From Rhodothermales bacterium (GTDB lineage: Bacteria; Bacteroidota; Rhodothermia; Rhodothermales; JABDKH01), in the NCBI GenBank assembly GCA_013002165.1, contig JABDKO010000300.1, forward strand, positions 1 to 44,761: a stretch of DNA of 44,761 nucleotides. The letters run 5' to 3'. Positions within the stretch are counted from its first letter, which is position 1. Each line of letters opens with the position of its first letter. A model generated the notes under the pieces. The model was not told the origin of the DNA and made no database searches. It saw only the letters and a list, made by a program, of their open reading frames with translations. Below, piece by piece: positions 13,344-20,036 of the stretch. The translations under genes and the position numbers were made by a program.

Positions 13344-14498
13344 ATGTCAATCTATCGAGATTTGTTTTCGTTGCCGGATGGCTATCGTTACCTCAACTGT
13401 GCGTACCTGTCGCCTCTATCGAAACGTGTAGAACAAACTGCCGTGAATGCACTTGTCAGAAGGCGCACTCCGTCGACTATCGGCGTCGGTGATTTCTTTG
13501 ACCCGGCAGATAGCGTTCGAAGTTTGTTTACGAAAATACTCGGCTCGGAGGATCCAGCGCGCATCGCATTAATTCCATCCGCCTCCTATGGAATGGCCAT
13601 TGTTGCCAGGAACGTCGAGGCAGGCTCTGGTCAGAAAGTCATTCTTGTTGAAGACCAGTTCCCGAGTAGCGTGTATACGTGGAAACGGTTTTGTGCAGCG
13701 CAGAAATGTGACCTGGAGTTAGTACAGAGGCCCGATCCAGATGGACACGTCGGTCAGACCTGGAACGAGATGATCTTGACTGCAATCGACTCGACCACCG
13801 CTGTGATTGCATTGCCGCATGTGCACTGGACTGATGGAACCGTGTTCGATCTCGAATCAATAGGTCGGGAGGCTCGCCGGGTGGGTGCCAAACTTATAGT
13901 AGACGGGACACAGTCCGTTGGTGCATATCCCCTCGACTTCCAGGCGGTCCGACCGGATGCAGTGATTTGTGCAGGTTACAAATGGCTCACGGGAAATATG
14001 GGACTCGGAGTCGCGTATCTCGGCGAGTGCTTCGATGATGGTGTTCCACTGGAGGAGAACTGGATCGGACGGGCTAATAGTCGCAATTTCTCATCTCTTG
14101 TTCAATACGTTGACGAATATGTTGACGGTGCGGCGCGATATGACGTCGGCGAACGAGGCATCGGGTTGCTGCTGCCTGTCTTTGTGGAAGCACTATCGCA
14201 GGTTTCCGAATGGGGCACTGAACTGATACAGAGTCATTGCCGTACTATTTCAAAACCGGGATTGGACGAATTGAGAAATTTTGGCGCCATCGTACCCGAC
14301 GATGATGCACCTTCACATCTCTTCGGGATCCGGTTTAGACAGGACGGCATCCGCGATCGTCTGCTGAGTGAACTCAAAGCTCGCGACATCAGCGTTTCCC
14401 TCCGCGGCGATGCGATAAGGGTCGCACCGTATCTGTATAATTCGGAGGATGATGTCAGTGCGCTTGTAGACGCTTGCTCGGCGGCTATTCGTCTTTAG
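13344..14498 (+). CDS. class V aminotransferase / cysteine-desulfurase-like PLP enzyme
   Basis: 384 residues, cytoplasmic PLP fold-type I enzyme. Visible: an N-terminal 'YLNCAYLSPLSKRVEQ' typical of the kynureninase/isopenicillin-N-epimerase-like branch, 'HVHWTDGTVFDL', 'LIVDGTQSVGAYPLDF' (the Asp that contacts the PLP pyridine nitrogen, and the Gln stacking region) and 'VICAGYKWLTGNMGLG', in which the Lys is the expected Schiff-base residue. The SufS/NifS catalytic cysteine loop is not apparent, so a sulfur-transfer role is unlikely. The substrate is unknown. The gene stands alone, with its own candidate promoter just upstream. Confidence 0.87.
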   Translation: MSIYRDLFSLPDGYRYLNCAYLSPLSKRVEQTAVNALVRRRTPSTIGVGDFFDPADSVRSLFTKILGSEDPARIALIPSASYGMAIVARNVEAGSGQKVILVEDQFPSSVYTWKRFCAAQKCDLELVQRPDPDGHVGQTWNEMILTAIDSTTAVIALPHVHWTDGTVFDLESIGREARRVGAKLIVDGTQSVGAYPLDFQAVRPDAVICAGYKWLTGNMGLGVAYLGECFDDGVPLEENWIGRANSRNFSSLVQYVDEYVDGAARYDVGERGIGLLLPVFVEALSQVSEWGTELIQSHCRTISKPGLDELRNFGAIVPDDDAPSHLFGIRFRQDGIRDRLLSELKARDISVSLRGDAIRVAPYLYNSEDDVSALVDACSAAIRL

Positions 14499-14593: not shown

Positions 14594-15232
14594 ATGAAAT
14601 ACGGCCTTGGAATTCTATTTGCTCTAATTCTGACTATTCCACGCTCTGACATTGCTGCTCAGGACGCAACCACCGTTCTCGGCGACCTTCGAAGTACGTA
14701 TGATGCGATCACAGGTCTGAAGGCAGATTTCTCTCAGACGATGAATTCGGAGTATATGAATGAGCCCCAGGAGACTTCGGGAACGCTGGTCTTGATGGGA
14801 GACAAGTATCGCGTTGAGGCTGGTGTGCAAACGATAGTAACCGACGGCGAGTTTACCTGGGTCTACAATGCAGCTGAGGATCAGCTTATCATAAATGACT
14901 ATGAAGAGGATGAGACGACATTCTCTATCTCGGACTTTTTTCAGACGTTTGATGAGAGGTATACCGTCCAGGACTTGACTAGTACGTCAACTGATGGAGT
15001 GGAACATCATATATTGGCGTTAACCCCTACCGATCCGGCATCGTTCTTTACCGGCGTCACATTGTGGGTACGGGCGACAGATAATATTATTACTCGCCTT
15101 CAAATAATGGACGCCAACGAAACAGAGATGACATTCGGTCTGGATGAGATCCAGATTAATCCCGAGATCGCGCCCGATTCGTTTTCGTTCACACCTGACG
15201 ACGGGACTGACGTAGTCGACCTGCGATCGTAG
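14594..15232 (+). CDS. lolA: LolA-family outer-membrane lipoprotein carrier
   Basis: 212 residues with a cleavable signal peptide (about 1-22, 'GILFALILTIPRSDIAAQ'). The mature protein has the LolA hallmarks: 'LRSTYDAITGLKADFSQTM' at the start, 'SGTLVLMGDKYRVEA', 'VTDGEFTWVYNAAEDQLII' and a C-terminal strand 'DEIQINPEIAPDSFSFTPDDGTDV'. LolA ferries lipoproteins across the periplasm from the LolCDE complex to the outer membrane. Three lipoprotein genes lie upstream within 15 kb. It is followed 22 bases later by a flippase-like gene, suggesting one transcript for envelope functions. Confidence 0.9.
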   Translation: MKYGLGILFALILTIPRSDIAAQDATTVLGDLRSTYDAITGLKADFSQTMNSEYMNEPQETSGTLVLMGDKYRVEAGVQTIVTDGEFTWVYNAAEDQLIINDYEEDETTFSISDFFQTFDERYTVQDLTSTSTDGVEHHILALTPTDPASFFTGVTLWVRATDNIITRLQIMDANETEMTFGLDEIQINPEIAPDSFSFTPDDGTDVVDLRS

Positions 15233-15254: not shown

Positions 15255-16310
15255 ATGATAAAGAGCGAGTCGCTTCGAAAAATCCTGACCATCGCGGGAC
15301 CGGTGGTTATCGCTCTTGGTTTACTTTATCTCGCTTTTAGGGGGACCGATACAGGAGAGTTCTGGAGTGTCCTTCGAGACGCCAACTATTACTGGCTGAT
15401 ACCACTCGCATTTGCAACATTTCTCAGTCACTGGTTGCGTGCTTACAGGTGGACGATCTTTATGAACGCGGTTCCCGGCCACGCTGGCGATCGCTTTTCA
15501 AACAATACTGCCTTTGGTGCCCTTATGGTCGGGTACATGGTTAATTACGCCACGACCCGGCTTGGAGAAGTTGTTCGATCCGTCATTGTTTCTCGCAAAG
15601 AGGGTATTTCTTTTTCAGCCGTGGTCGGGACCGTCGTGCTTGACCGGGTGATTGATGTAGTTACCCTCGCCATTGCTCTCATTTCAGTGGTATTTATTGT
15701 AGGTACAGACGATCAGGTTCTTGCCGATTCCGTTTTCACACCTGCGATGGAGCGAATCTCAGCGGTACCTGTCTACGTCTGGTTACTCGTCAGTATTGTG
15801 GCAGTCACTATTGCCGTGCTCGCCATCCGGGTGTTGACGTCGCGCAGCACAAGGACGCGCTCGATAGTCCGCGATTTCCGGGATGGGCTGATGACTATTG
15901 CCCGGTCAGATCGACCAGTCGCCATTGCGCTGACGACTATACTTATGTGGGTTTGTTATGCGTCGATGGCATACATGCCACTACTCGTTCTGCAATTCGA
16001 ATCCAGTTATGACATTTCGATCCGGATGGCCTGGATTGTCATGAACGTTGGAGCACTTGGTGTAGTTGTACCTACGCCAGGTGGCATCGGATCGTACCAC
16101 TATATCACAATCCTGATTATGACTGCGATGTTCGCAATCTCACAGGCGGATGCCGCTGCATATGCATTCTTGACGCATGGAGCTCAACTCGTCCTGTATA
16201 CGCTGATCGGTTTTGCATATGTAATTTATTTCGGGATGGGTCTGAGATTCACACGAATAACGGCAGAAGACGCCGAAGTACAGGACGATGCGGCGACTAC
16301 TTCTATTTAG
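15255..16310 (+). CDS. YbhN/UPF0104-type membrane protein (lysylphosphatidylglycerol synthase TM fold)
   Basis: 351 residues with about eight hydrophobic segments. Conserved elements of the AglD/YbhN/MprF-flippase fold are visible: 'FLSHWLRAYRWTIFMNAV', 'GYMVNYATTRLGEVVRSVIVSRKEGISFSAVVGTVVLDRVIDVV' (read in pieces) and 'VVPTPGGIGSYHYI'. Proteins with this fold act in lipid or polyprenyl-linked substrate translocation in the cytoplasmic membrane; the substrate here is unknown. The C-terminal tail is acidic. The gene overlaps the start of the downstream M1-like gene by 23 bases, which implies translational coupling. Confidence 0.87.
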   Translation: MIKSESLRKILTIAGPVVIALGLLYLAFRGTDTGEFWSVLRDANYYWLIPLAFATFLSHWLRAYRWTIFMNAVPGHAGDRFSNNTAFGALMVGYMVNYATTRLGEVVRSVIVSRKEGISFSAVVGTVVLDRVIDVVTLAIALISVVFIVGTDDQVLADSVFTPAMERISAVPVYVWLLVSIVAVTIAVLAIRVLTSRSTRTRSIVRDFRDGLMTIARSDRPVAIALTTILMWVCYASMAYMPLLVLQFESSYDISIRMAWIVMNVGALGVVVPTPGGIGSYHYITILIMTAMFAISQADAAAYAFLTHGAQLVLYTLIGFAYVIYFGMGLRFTRITAEDAEVQDDAATTSI

Positions 16311-18690
16311 GCTACAACTCTCTCATGCTGCCGGGATTGTCTGCTTCGGTCTGATGATCGCGCTTGGCCATCCTGTTGTGGCTCAACAACATCCAATTCT
16401 TGAAGCTCCACTCCGGGCCGCAGCCGATGATACGATATCAGTTGATAACAAATATATCGTCTCAATTGCCGACGGTTCGATCTCAGTCGTACATACTGTC
16501 ACGCCGGGCACCCGGTTAGATTCCATCGCCCTCGAAGCCGGTATGTATACGCTAAACAACATCGTTATACATTCGGACAGCCTGGCGTTCACCCCGGAGA
16601 TAAACAATGAGGCCGACGATCTCATTGAACTTCATATCGGGCCAGACAGGAGCGCGCCGGCGAAGATCGACAGTGCAGTCGTTTCATGGTCCAGGGAGAT
16701 ATTACCGGATGAAGTAGTCCAGGTTGCGGGTCGAGAGTACGTCGTTCTACACAGTTATCCGACACTCATTCCTTCGTCTGTTCCGTTCGTTGCGGGGATT
16801 TCCAGTCAGACGTTCTCGTTCGTCTCGAACGATCCCCAATCATTTGCATTCAGTGGAAGACGCGACCGATTACCGCGAGGTTCAGGTATTGAACACTCGT
16901 ACGCAATTTCATTACCGACGGCGTCGTTCGGTCAGTACATCGTTTACGGTGATCTTTCTAGAATTGAGGACCGCGTTTTACTTCCTGCCGGCGGAGCCGT
17001 AGATCTTGAGTATGTTCATACCGGAGAAGAACAACGGGACATCCTGCAGCTTTTTGGAAGCGCACCCGAAGCAATTCGCTTCTTCGCAACATCCTTTGGA
17101 TGGCATGTCGATGCAAATTCGGTAAGATTAGTATCTATCCCCGGGGCGGAAGTCGGTCGGTACGTTCGCATGACAGGTCTTTTTGATTCCGAGGAGGATA
17201 CAGAAACCGGGAACGTCCTTCGCACGGCATCCAGCATTGCTTTTACACAGCTCTCCGAACGCGCAAATTTATCCGCTCAGGATACCTGGCTATTTACGGG
17301 TCTGCCGTTGTATCTCGGTGCAATGTTTGTTGAAGTCGACCGCGGTGAGGCGGCGTTCGACTCGATCATGCAGGATCTTCGCGACCGCCTGGAGGATGAA
17401 CGGCGAGTCTATGAGAGGCCGCTTTTTTTTGAGCGCTGGTTCGATCCGATTAATGTAATGGATGAGCATGCCTTTGCACACGGGGCGTGGACAATGCACT
17501 CTCTCAGGCATATGCTCGGAGATGACAAATTTGGCGACGTAATCGGAAGGCTTACAAACGGCAGCAATGAACTGAGCAGTGACAACCTGACCCAAATTCT
17601 TGAGGACTACCTTGACGATACACAGCAGGCCCGACAGCGTGAAATGTTTTACACAGAGTCCATCCCTCAATTTGATGTTGCATGGACCTCGGCTGCTGCG
17701 GCTCGAACGGTAGTCATAAGTGTGTCGCCGGCAGCAGGTTCGAACAGTGCTCCAGTTCCAATCGACATTGCGGTTGAAACTCTGACCGGAGTTGAGGTTC
17801 ACACCATCGTTGCTGGCGGATCCGCGGTTACCGAAGAGTTTGAAGTATCTGGCCGTCCCCGATACATAACAGTCGATCCGGATGGCAAACTGCTTGCCAC
17901 ATTCCACGTAGAGCAGACTGTGTCGGCATGGGTTGCAAGCCTCAGGAATGCAAAGCGCCTGTCTTCGCGCATTTCGGCCGCACGGGCGCTACGCCAGTTT
18001 GTCACGGATCCCGCACTATTAATCGGACTAAAAAGCGCGCTTCGGACAGAGACAAGTGATCGTGTCATACAAGAAATACTGGAAACTGTAGGACAGATAC
18101 CCCCGACAGCAGCAGCCGAACAAACACTGATCGCCTACCTTGGCGCTGACTCTCCCGGTGTCCGCGCCACGGCAGTCAGGGCCCTCGAGTCGTACACGGG
18201 ACAATCCGAGTCTATGTCTTCCATTCGAGAGATGCTGACTACCGAGCGCAATGAGCATGTACTGGCGGAAGCTGTCCGCTTCATTTCAATGACCAGCTCT
18301 CCGGATCGACAACGAACACTTCAGTCAGCACTAATCACGCAGACTCCGGATGATGCGGTGAGAATCGCAGGGATACGCGGTTTATCCCGATTGGACGACG
18401 CGACGTTTTCAAAGAGCGAATCTGCCAGATTTCTCAATCAAAACTACTCCGACCAGGTTCGTATTGCAGCATTGAGGGTACACGCATCCTCCCTCGAAGG
18501 TGACCAACGCGAACAATTCGTCACACCGTTTCTAACCGACCGACGTCCAAGCGTCAGGTCAGCGGCTGCTGCGTTATTGCCAACAACGGTTGACGACTAC
18601 GGTAACAAGATGCGGGACATTCTCGACGCTGAGACTGACCCGAGGGTTCGGCAGGACATACGATGGGTATTGTATCGAAACGTCGAATAG
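16288..18690 (+). CDS. secreted M1-peptidase-like protein without zinc site, with C-terminal HEAT repeats
   Basis: 800 residues, probably periplasmic: basic N-terminus and hydrophobic signal to about residue 33 ('PVVAQ'). Residues about 40-240 resemble the beta-sandwich of M1 aminopeptidases, and 250-460 resemble the gluzincin domain, for example 'AFAHGAWTMHSLRHMLGDDKF' (split at 20: the conserved 'KGA..LHMLR..LG' helix). The zinc motif is absent: the HExxH place reads 'AFTQL' (318-322) and the 'WLNEGFA' place reads 'WLFTGLPLY' (334-342). Residues about 545-800 form HEAT/armadillo-like helical repeats. A non-catalytic binding or scaffold role is inferred. It is coupled to the flippase-like gene upstream. 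Confidence 0.75.
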   Translation: MRRLLLFRLQLSHAAGIVCFGLMIALGHPVVAQQHPILEAPLRAAADDTISVDNKYIVSIADGSISVVHTVTPGTRLDSIALEAGMYTLNNIVIHSDSLAFTPEINNEADDLIELHIGPDRSAPAKIDSAVVSWSREILPDEVVQVAGREYVVLHSYPTLIPSSVPFVAGISSQTFSFVSNDPQSFAFSGRRDRLPRGSGIEHSYAISLPTASFGQYIVYGDLSRIEDRVLLPAGGAVDLEYVHTGEEQRDILQLFGSAPEAIRFFATSFGWHVDANSVRLVSIPGAEVGRYVRMTGLFDSEEDTETGNVLRTASSIAFTQLSERANLSAQDTWLFTGLPLYLGAMFVEVDRGEAAFDSIMQDLRDRLEDERRVYERPLFFERWFDPINVMDEHAFAHGAWTMHSLRHMLGDDKFGDVIGRLTNGSNELSSDNLTQILEDYLDDTQQARQREMFYTESIPQFDVAWTSAAAARTVVISVSPAAGSNSAPVPIDIAVETLTGVEVHTIVAGGSAVTEEFEVSGRPRYITVDPDGKLLATFHVEQTVSAWVASLRNAKRLSSRISAARALRQFVTDPALLIGLKSALRTETSDRVIQEILETVGQIPPTAAAEQTLIAYLGADSPGVRATAVRALESYTGQSESMSSIREMLTTERNEHVLAEAVRFISMTSSPDRQRTLQSALITQTPDDAVRIAGIRGLSRLDDATFSKSESARFLNQNYSDQVRIAALRVHASSLEGDQREQFVTPFLTDRRPSVRSAAAALLPTTVDDYGNKMRDILDAETDPRVRQDIRWVLYRNVE

Positions 18691-18872: not shown

Positions 18873-19133
18873 ATGCAGATTAGCGTGAACCAAGAAGAGA
18901 ATCCACTTTCTGGCCTGGTAACTGACGAAGTGTACGAAGTCCTGCTTCAACACCAGCTACTAAGCGAAAAAGGCGTTCGGGATTTTCAAATCCGGCAAAA
19001 GTTTCGCTCGTACCGCAGTCAGAATATAGCAGCGTACGATGCGATTGAGAATCTCCGTGAAGAGTATCCGTACTTGCAGTTTGATACTATTCGCAAGATC
19101 GTCTATAAACTCAACGGGAAACGGTCAAGCTGA
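18873..19133 (+). CDS. small 86-residue protein, unknown
   Basis: 86 residues, soluble, with no signal peptide. Predicted mostly helical: 'VTDEVYEVLLQHQLLSEKGVRD', then a basic stretch 'RQKFRSYRSQN', then 'AYDAIENLREEYPYLQFDTIRKIVYKL'. The layout of short helices with a basic middle is compatible with a helix-turn-helix or RNA-binding fold, but I do not recognise the family. Coding status is supported by the clean ATG, acidic/basic periodicity and a stop that overlaps the convergent rlmB end by nine bases (TCAAGCTGA holds both stops), an arrangement repeated elsewhere in this window. Confidence 0.65.
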   Translation: MQISVNQEENPLSGLVTDEVYEVLLQHQLLSEKGVRDFQIRQKFRSYRSQNIAAYDAIENLREEYPYLQFDTIRKIVYKLNGKRSS

Positions 19134-19919
19134 AGAGGCTTCTTTCTTATCGCCTCGAGCAGCAAACAGGAGAATACCGGCCGCAACCGACGCGTTGAGT
19201 GACTCGATGTCACCGGAGAGGGGTATCGAAACAGTGTAATCGCAAACGCTCTTGACTGCTGCTGACAAGCCTGCATGTTCATTACCTATGACGAGTGCCA
19301 GCGGTCGATCCCAATCCATCTCCTGAAACGTTGTTTTGCCGTCACCGTCTGCACCGACAATCCAGTAGCCTCGCTCCTTCAGCATCTCGATCGTTGTCGT
19401 AAGATTTGACACCCTGCTCATTGGGATGCGAAGTATCGCTCCGGCGCTGGCCTTAATTGCGTGTGCGTTTACCGGAGCCATCTGTTTCGACGGCACAATT
19501 ACCCCGGCGGCGCCACATCCGACGACACTTCGTACTATCGCCCCGTAATTCTGCGGATCCTCAATCCTGTCGAGGATGACCACCAGCGGCTTGATCTTGC
19601 GAACAGAATCAAGATCGCTTCCGATATTTGAGAGCATTGTATCAACGTCCACAAATGCTACCGGTGAAATCAGTGCTACTATTCCCTGGTGATTTGCACC
19701 CCCGGACAAGCCCGACAACTTCGTTTCGGGCACGTACTGAACAGGAATGCCCAGTTTACGGGCTGAGTCTGCAATCACCCGTAACGCCTTGCCACTGTCC
19801 TTCTTGGCGAGCAGCACCTTGTCGATCGCTGATCCATCGCGCTCCAGTGCTTCGGCTACAGCAATTCTGCCGGCAATAGCTTGTATCGTGTCTGCTGATC
19901 CTGATGGTTTGGAAGGCAT
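19125..19919 (-). CDS. rlmB: SpoU-family 23S rRNA (guanosine-2'-O)-methyltransferase RlmB
   Basis: 264 residues from ATG 19919; an in-frame GTG at 19952 would add 11. Transfers a methyl group from SAM to a ribose 2'-OH of 23S rRNA (G2251 in E. coli for RlmB). N-terminal L30e-like substrate domain: '[25 protein letters not shown]' (in parts). SPOUT knot motifs: '[20 protein letters not shown]' (motif 1), '[13 protein letters not shown]' (motif 2) and '[20 protein letters not shown]' (motif 3). Assignment to RlmB rather than TrmH rests on the N-terminal domain. It is divergent from pckA. Confidence 0.93.
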
Positions 19920-20036
19920 AAGTTTTCCGCGGCGTGTGAGGTAATTGCTCACAACAAGTTAAAGATCTCCCCTCAGTATTTGTGTACGATCGTTCTTAGA
20001 TTGGCGCTTTATCATCCCGAACCAGATCATCATTCC

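Follow-up and report, generated by a model that had tools for sequence, protein, structure and literature searches.

A putative M1 pseudo-aminopeptidase with Ig-like and HEAT domains, encoded behind ybhN in Rhodothermales

M1 aminopeptidases are commonly built from four domains, a β domain, a catalytic domain, an Ig-like domain and a HEAT domain (passages of PMC10343166). A review of metallo-pseudopeptidases names one M1 case, the yeast homologue Tma108, whose substrate pocket is proposed as the binding site for nascent chains and which is probably non-enzymatic (passages of PMC11266112). Here we analyse a gene of a Rhodothermales bacterium, found at 16288–18690 on the forward strand of a 44,761-nucleotide stretch that we call the window (positions 1 to 44,761 of contig JABDKO010000300.1, assembly GCA_013002165.1). 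Its product shares the whole-length fold of PepN and puromycin-sensitive aminopeptidase, including Ig-like domain III and HEAT domain IV (as described in parts of PMC10343166). Unlike PepN-type enzymes, it carries neither the HExxH motif, the third glutamate, GxMEN nor the catalytic tyrosine, and judged by these motifs M1 catalysis has almost certainly been lost. Tma108 has in common with the role proposed here its M1 family and a probable non-enzymatic binding function, and differs in that it keeps HExxH and the glutamate, is ribosome-associated and is not exported (excerpts of PMC11266112).

The gene neighbours encode a LolA, of the LolA1 type by NCBIfam, and a YbhN/MprF-type transport protein; the window protein itself is neither. 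A passage of PMC11980842 discusses E. coli YbhN as a solo domain for lipid transport, GpgF of P. aeruginosa, of the same type as YbhN, is a flippase by prediction only (sections of PMC12713373), and LolA in Bacteroidota is treated in parts of PMC11885536, the main text of which does not contain ‘Rhodotherm’. Among the matches listed in open-licence PMC literature there was no paper on a dead M1 group or on a lolA-ybhN-M1 gene set, and the remark in the original prediction, made from the DNA letters, that no function has been described for this combination agrees with this.

Domain plan and zinc site of the window protein

The open reading frame (ORF) is intact, with an ATG start and 800 codons' worth of amino acids, and its parts are as follows.

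16288..18690, +, putative M1-fold pseudo-aminopeptidase with signal-like N-terminus, Ig-like and HEAT domains (ORF, Pfam, AlphaFold model, alignment)
16288..16389, +, signal-peptide-like N-terminus, residues 1–34, no lipobox (hydropathy, judged by eye; orthologs start similarly)
16393..17022, +, M1 N-terminal β domain, residues 36–245 (AlphaFold model of low confidence here, pLDDT mostly 50–70)
17023..17652, +, M1 catalytic-type helical domain, residues 246–455, zinc site lost (model, PepN superposition, alignment)
17239..17253, +, AFTQL, residues 318–322, taken as the HExxH equivalent in the original prediction; one possible register
17665..17910, +, Ig-like β-sandwich (M1 domain III), residues 460–541 (model, PepN superposition)
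17920..18684, +, HEAT solenoid (M1 domain IV), residues 545–799 (PF13646, E 1.9e-17; model)

Searches with the window protein alone (Pfam, NCBIfam and phmmer against the PDB) returned HEAT-type matches only, and the Pfam search with PF01433 gave no M1 match up to E=1. The M1 part is invisible to Pfam in this protein itself, and orthologs and structure were needed. All six full-length orthologs tested passed the PF01433 cut-off (best E 1.7e-26, weakest 2.6e-07), and the N-domain family PF17900 was found in three of these six. The AlphaFold model, built from 47 sequences, reached a predicted local distance difference score (pLDDT) of 82.7 and a predicted template modelling score of 0.84, with values above 90 over most of the HEAT solenoid and of 77–88 toward its C-terminal end. 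It superposes on PepN with a Z-score of 27.9 and a root-mean-square deviation of 4.4 over 715 residues at 11% identity, spanning residues 39–799, and 234 PDB chains match it in Foldseek at E ≤0.001. A search with the window protein also recovered four M1 genes of the same genome, each with HExxH. The M1 relationship of the window protein is firm. The fold, the downstream HEAT array and the signal-like start had all been predicted and are borne out; the hydrophobic N-terminal stretch ends VVA-QQ, and the protein is probably secreted. What does not hold is the idea of a special M1 and HEAT combination: the four-domain plan is normal, M1 and HEAT enzymes with HExxH are common and, HEAT being the usual fourth M1 domain, the window protein is a full M1 protein and not a fusion.

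No histidine occurs between residues 274 and 393, so HExxH is absent in every register. The original prediction was right that the motif is gone, while its reading of the site as AFTQL is merely one of several registers; residues 314–318 (ASSIA), 19 back from T337, are another, and MAFFT places the site at residues 320–324. The loss is independent of which register holds. The third zinc ligand, a glutamate, is replaced by T337, so that the downstream Glu motif is lost as described, and GxMEN and the catalytic tyrosine are missing as well. With all four gone, zinc catalysis by the window protein is not possible, as had been claimed.

The same loss runs through the orthologs. We aligned 34 locus orthologs (the window included, the genome G010 discussed below left out) with 19 active controls, of which 16 were hand-picked from 35 HExxH loci and three came from genomes (C55, G059, G050); one further active row, identical to that of G050, was excluded. 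HExxH was intact in 0 of the 33 orthologs that cover the site and in 19/19 controls. Taken singly, each of its three fixed positions held the correct letter in one ortholog. The third glutamate was present in 10/33 orthologs versus all 19 controls, and the catalytic tyrosine in 0/34 versus 19/19; within GxMEN, neither the methionine nor the glutamate was kept (0/32 for each).

Among solved structures, the alignment profile finds its best match in TAF2, a non-enzymatic subunit of TFIID (E 1.5e-60). Among the 50 Foldseek matches listed, the highest query TM-score (0.74) belonged to 7edx_B; entry 7edx is listed under TAF2 in the profile search, and we take its chain B to be TAF2. The single active member L082 had alanine and puromycin-sensitive aminopeptidases as its best matches, not TAF2. 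TAF2 is nuclear and eukaryotic, and there is no sign that it and the window family lost catalysis in common. We also considered whether the protein belongs with TAF2 in a TFIID-like, nuclear setting, and rejected this for a bacterial gene with a signal-like N-terminus.

A locus family behind ybhN

The gene lies within a conserved run, the other members of which in the window are these.

13344..14498, +, class-V aminotransferase-like gene, first of the conserved run (PF00266, E 7.3e-22)
14594..15232, +, lolA, periplasmic lipoprotein carrier (PF03548, E 9.2e-16; NCBIfam LolA1_Flavo NF053572 above cut-off)
15255..16310, +, YbhN-like membrane protein, LPG_synthase_TM, flippase-like (PF03706, E 2.9e-46; TIGR00374 above cut-off)
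18873..19133, +, conserved 86-residue ORF marking the insertion point, present with or without the M1-like gene upstream
19125..19952, −, rlmB, convergent flank (TIGR00186 above cut-off; same flank in many loci)

Coordinates and Pfam matches agree with the original prediction that the gene overlaps a YbhN-like gene which follows lolA. The overlap is 23 nucleotides in the window and suggests coupled translation.

Across a sample of 114 Rhodothermales genomes we found a full-type gene in at least 35 and a short form in five (family f14). These counts are lower bounds: the gene of G106 was recovered only on reading its YbhN locus, and among genomes without a match 20 ybhN loci were fetched. The conserved gene order was confirmed. 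In all 32 full-type loci with that side on the contig (12 and 19 in two locus sets, plus the window) the gene lies directly downstream of ybhN; lolA nearly always precedes ybhN, and the opposite side is mostly occupied by the 86-residue ORF and convergent rlmB. The aminotransferase-like gene has relatives about 42–50% identical upstream of lolA in many loci of the order. YbhN relatives occur in 108/114 genomes and LolA, by PF03548, in 101/114 with one match each, the window lolA being the sole match of its genome. Linkage to lolA was seen in the window and in the loci read, f14 excepted, and YbhN is the closer tie of the gene. A class search of 244 genomes at E 1e-140 matched 30 genomes, all in the order and none in the 130 genomes outside it, at a cut-off that is not exhaustive, as the full-type members of G094, G095, G105, G106 and G107 fall below it.

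A genome-wide scan gave 61 relatives, 35 with HExxH and 26 without. Those with HExxH come from Planctomycetota, Chloroflexota, Eremiobacterota, archaea and other groups; the match extends to residue 690 or further, into the HEAT part, in 24 of the 35 loci. Unlike the window protein, all 35 are without LolA, YbhN and RlmB in the fetched stretch, and Lgt and HisS were likewise found in none. Each of the 26 relatives without HExxH has at least one of the locus neighbours; two of them (L055 of G010, and L077) start past the motif, so the loss is visible in 24. The closest relatives outside the locus family are active M1 and HEAT enzymes (C55, L082, L078, L070). The window genome itself has eight PF01433 matches, one of which is the M1 and HEAT enzyme with HELAH at C55.

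Some further observations concern these active genes and their surroundings. A weak aminotransferase match lies near 4 of the 35 HExxH relatives; at L111, L112, L114 and L115 (HExxH M1 genes of a Kapaibacterium metagenome-assembled genome and other such genomes) a class-V aminotransferase-like frame, 27–31% identical to that of the window, lies near or overlaps the 3' end. The M1 and HEAT genes with HExxH of C55 and G059, at L054 8579–11110 (+) and L053 7462–10314 (+), have a neighbourhood of their own, with seven further shared gene families.

The site can also be empty. Among the 20 loci fetched as apparently lacking the gene, 13 run from ybhN to rlmB without it, one has it (L155, of G106) and six could not be judged, as rlmB was not close by or a contig end was reached. 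The window is so far the sole member of its own family with the gene. The 86-residue ORF has matches 51–82% identical in 37/60 separate loci of the order, and it is present in 11 of the 13 loci without the M1-like gene; it sits between ybhN, or the M1-like gene, and rlmB. It had no Pfam or NCBIfam match and was not found in two f14 loci. It is a conserved, unnamed small protein. In G004, which belongs to the window's family and is among the 13, a 274-residue frame (L141 2471–3292, −) fills the gap between ybhN and rlmB and does not match the family profile. In a genome matching Roseithermus sacchariphilus CP030158, ybhN (L039 11377–12350, −) is matched in two frames, so a broken gene or a sequence indel is possible.

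The f14 protein consists of a signal-like start followed by the Ig-like and HEAT domains only. The catalytic domain has been dropped and the gene still stands behind ybhN, as seen in two loci read and, for the other three genomes, from coordinates. The two loci read are these.

L049 9057–10235, −, f14 short form
L050 8919–10163, +, f14 short form

PF03548 had no match in any of the six f14 genomes searched; because this model also misses diverged LolA in f15 (G065, G068), we regard the f14 genomes as probably, not certainly, devoid of LolA. A short form kept behind ybhN at a locus without lolA suggests that the C-terminal half does the work, and that the constant companion is YbhN and not LolA.

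Selection and the origin of the inactive form

Ratios of nonsynonymous to synonymous substitution rates (dN/dS) were estimated from orthologs, not from the window, using ten hand-picked close pairs and four regions. The ratio lay at 0.02–0.30 in the 29 of 40 region comparisons that were computable (of the other 11, eight were saturated and three too short), values that are rough because dS was often above 1. Mean identities among dead orthologs were 0.24 for the N-terminal domain, 0.30 for the M1 part, 0.37 for the Ig-like domain and 0.33 for HEAT, compared with 0.32, 0.45, 0.27 and 0.27 among active controls. When pairs were matched for HEAT identity (0.30–0.40), the M1 part stood at 0.30 in 102 dead pairs versus 0.52 in 44 active pairs. 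The weight of constraint has shifted away from the catalytic domain and onto the Ig-like and HEAT domains. Near the old site, the orthologs conserve an RPLVWDRW signature (its four columns 381–384 at 82–94%) that is not conserved among the active controls; the window version is RPLFFERW. The residues conserved solely in the dead set are D332, columns 381–384 (consensus WDRW, window FERW), W401, R525, R553, V663 and T684. We thus have an M1 fold that has lost its catalytic residues in a gene kept by selection, with the estimate of selection a rough one, and a non-catalytic function under selection is very probable.

One genome, G010, stands apart. Two of its contigs reach the locus from either side: GGMEN is found together with ybhN and lolA on one (L116), and the rlmB-side contig (L035) encodes WLNEGFATYL and DAHSYRKGAWV. 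GGMEN and SYRKG lie away from the contig ends and NEGFATY near the start of the L035 contig. Because these other catalytic motifs are kept, the G010 relative is likely active or recently active. An intact HExxH on L116 was not counted as secure. Its HELAH falls in the final 75 nucleotides of the contig, where GC is 0.44 versus 0.49–0.69 in the other 75-nucleotide windows scanned of the gene fragment, and this end conflicts with the overlapping start of the second contig (L116 1–75; L035 12637–12711); the contig end is likely chimeric. The original prediction had named an intact HExxH in relatives at this site as evidence against itself. None of the 33 orthologs has one, yet G010 looks active and its HELAH stands on a doubtful contig end, so that the prediction stands for the orthologs and is qualified by this genome.

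In a tree of the C-terminal part, G010 is placed beside G009 (SH-aLRT support 96), within the dead set, and in a tree of the N-terminal part it lies between the active and dead sets. A tree with a single loss was not rejected by the approximately unbiased test (p-AU 0.30 with the window, 0.31 without it). The trees are compatible with one loss of catalysis and with several.

Proposed role and alternative explanations

We propose that an active, secreted four-domain M1 aminopeptidase came to adjoin lolA-ybhN in Rhodothermales, and that zinc catalysis was then lost and the protein retained as a periplasmic binding protein. It would be exported by Sec into the periplasm, where the Ig-HEAT solenoid would dock a partner; the likeliest candidates are the side of the YbhN-like lipid transporter that faces the periplasm and something passed on by this transporter. 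Much as is proposed for Tma108, a peptide end may still fit into the emptied M1 cleft, for instance the N-terminus of a lipoprotein client or an envelope protein. Instead of working as an enzyme, the protein would thereby help deliver envelope lipids or lipoproteins, as an adaptor or holdase. We infer this scaffold or cargo-binding role from the signal-like start, the emptied cleft, the conservation of the Ig-like and HEAT domains, the gene neighbours and the literature on YbhN and Tma108; the partner and cargo named are likewise putative, and we hold an adaptor role beside YbhN and LolA only tentatively. Several observations weigh against it. At 13 loci, of which four are from the window's own family, the flanks are present and the gene is not, so lolA-ybhN can do without it. 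Conservation of gene order also reaches past the envelope genes (rlmB, lgt, hisS), and such wide synteny makes the neighbourhood alone less informative than it appears. The two f14 loci read keep the gene without lolA, which weakens the link to LolA itself. The window protein has a mean identity to orthologs of only 0.16 in its N-domain and 0.20 in its M1 part, and the dN/dS values are rough as stated.

The first two of these points also favour a non-catalytic scaffold unrelated to LolA and YbhN that happens to occupy a stable locus, for example one with a peptidase, a peptidoglycan protein or a surface protein as its binding partner. We regard this as nearly as likely as the adaptor we favour: the 13 empty sites leave lolA-ybhN intact, long-range synteny is strong in the order, and we know of no envelope role for the 86-residue ORF or rlmB. 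On the other side, the gene stands directly behind ybhN in 32/32 full-type loci visible on that side and in the two f14 loci read, which are without lolA, and its 23-nucleotide overlap with ybhN in the window suggests that the two are translated together. An accessory M1 peptidase no longer of use, drifting away in some lineages, would account for the patchy presence (at least 35 full-type and five short-form genes in 114 genomes), for orthologs merely 19–29% identical to the window protein and for the catalytic domain dropped in f14. Such decay is improbable given that 11 complete orthologs remain open over 772–874 residues despite about 20–25% identity to the window, that dN/dS is 0.02–0.30 in all computable regions, that some residues are conserved solely in the dead set, and that the Ig-like and HEAT domains are more conserved than in the active set.

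Pseudoenzymes often regulate active relatives, and with eight PF01433 matches in the genome, including the M1 and HEAT enzyme with HELAH at C55, the protein could regulate one of the cell's active M1 enzymes, through dimerisation or competition for substrate; none of the order's loci read showed an active M1 gene linked to it, and we give this little credence. Least probable is catalysis of something else by other residues. It could be read into the conserved, remodelled RPLVWDRW, which precedes the lost tyrosine by a few residues within the catalytic-type domain, but the columns conserved only in the dead set show no new histidine, cysteine or obvious acid set replacing the ligands, and f14 dispenses with the whole domain. 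Returning to the adaptor beside YbhN and LolA, a wider form of that proposal would see three stages at one fixed locus: a probably active protein (G010), a dead full-length one (34 genomes, 33 readable at HExxH), and a signal-like start with Ig-like and HEAT domains (f14, five genomes). Serving LolA/YbhN lipid or lipoprotein delivery, such a series would be the bacterial parallel to the conversion that gave rise to TAF2; we consider this reading less likely than not.

The M1 and HEAT plan is ordinary, and the unusual part is the dead locus family beside ybhN and lolA. If the scaffold role is wrong, the gene still warns that a HEAT-only annotation can mask a dead M1 fold. If the series of active, dead and domain-deleted forms at one locus is true, it would be a useful case of an enzyme becoming a scaffold. 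A dead M1 clade that spans one order and lies beside the genome's only LolA match may offer a lead on Lol and YbhN-type transport outside the proteobacteria.

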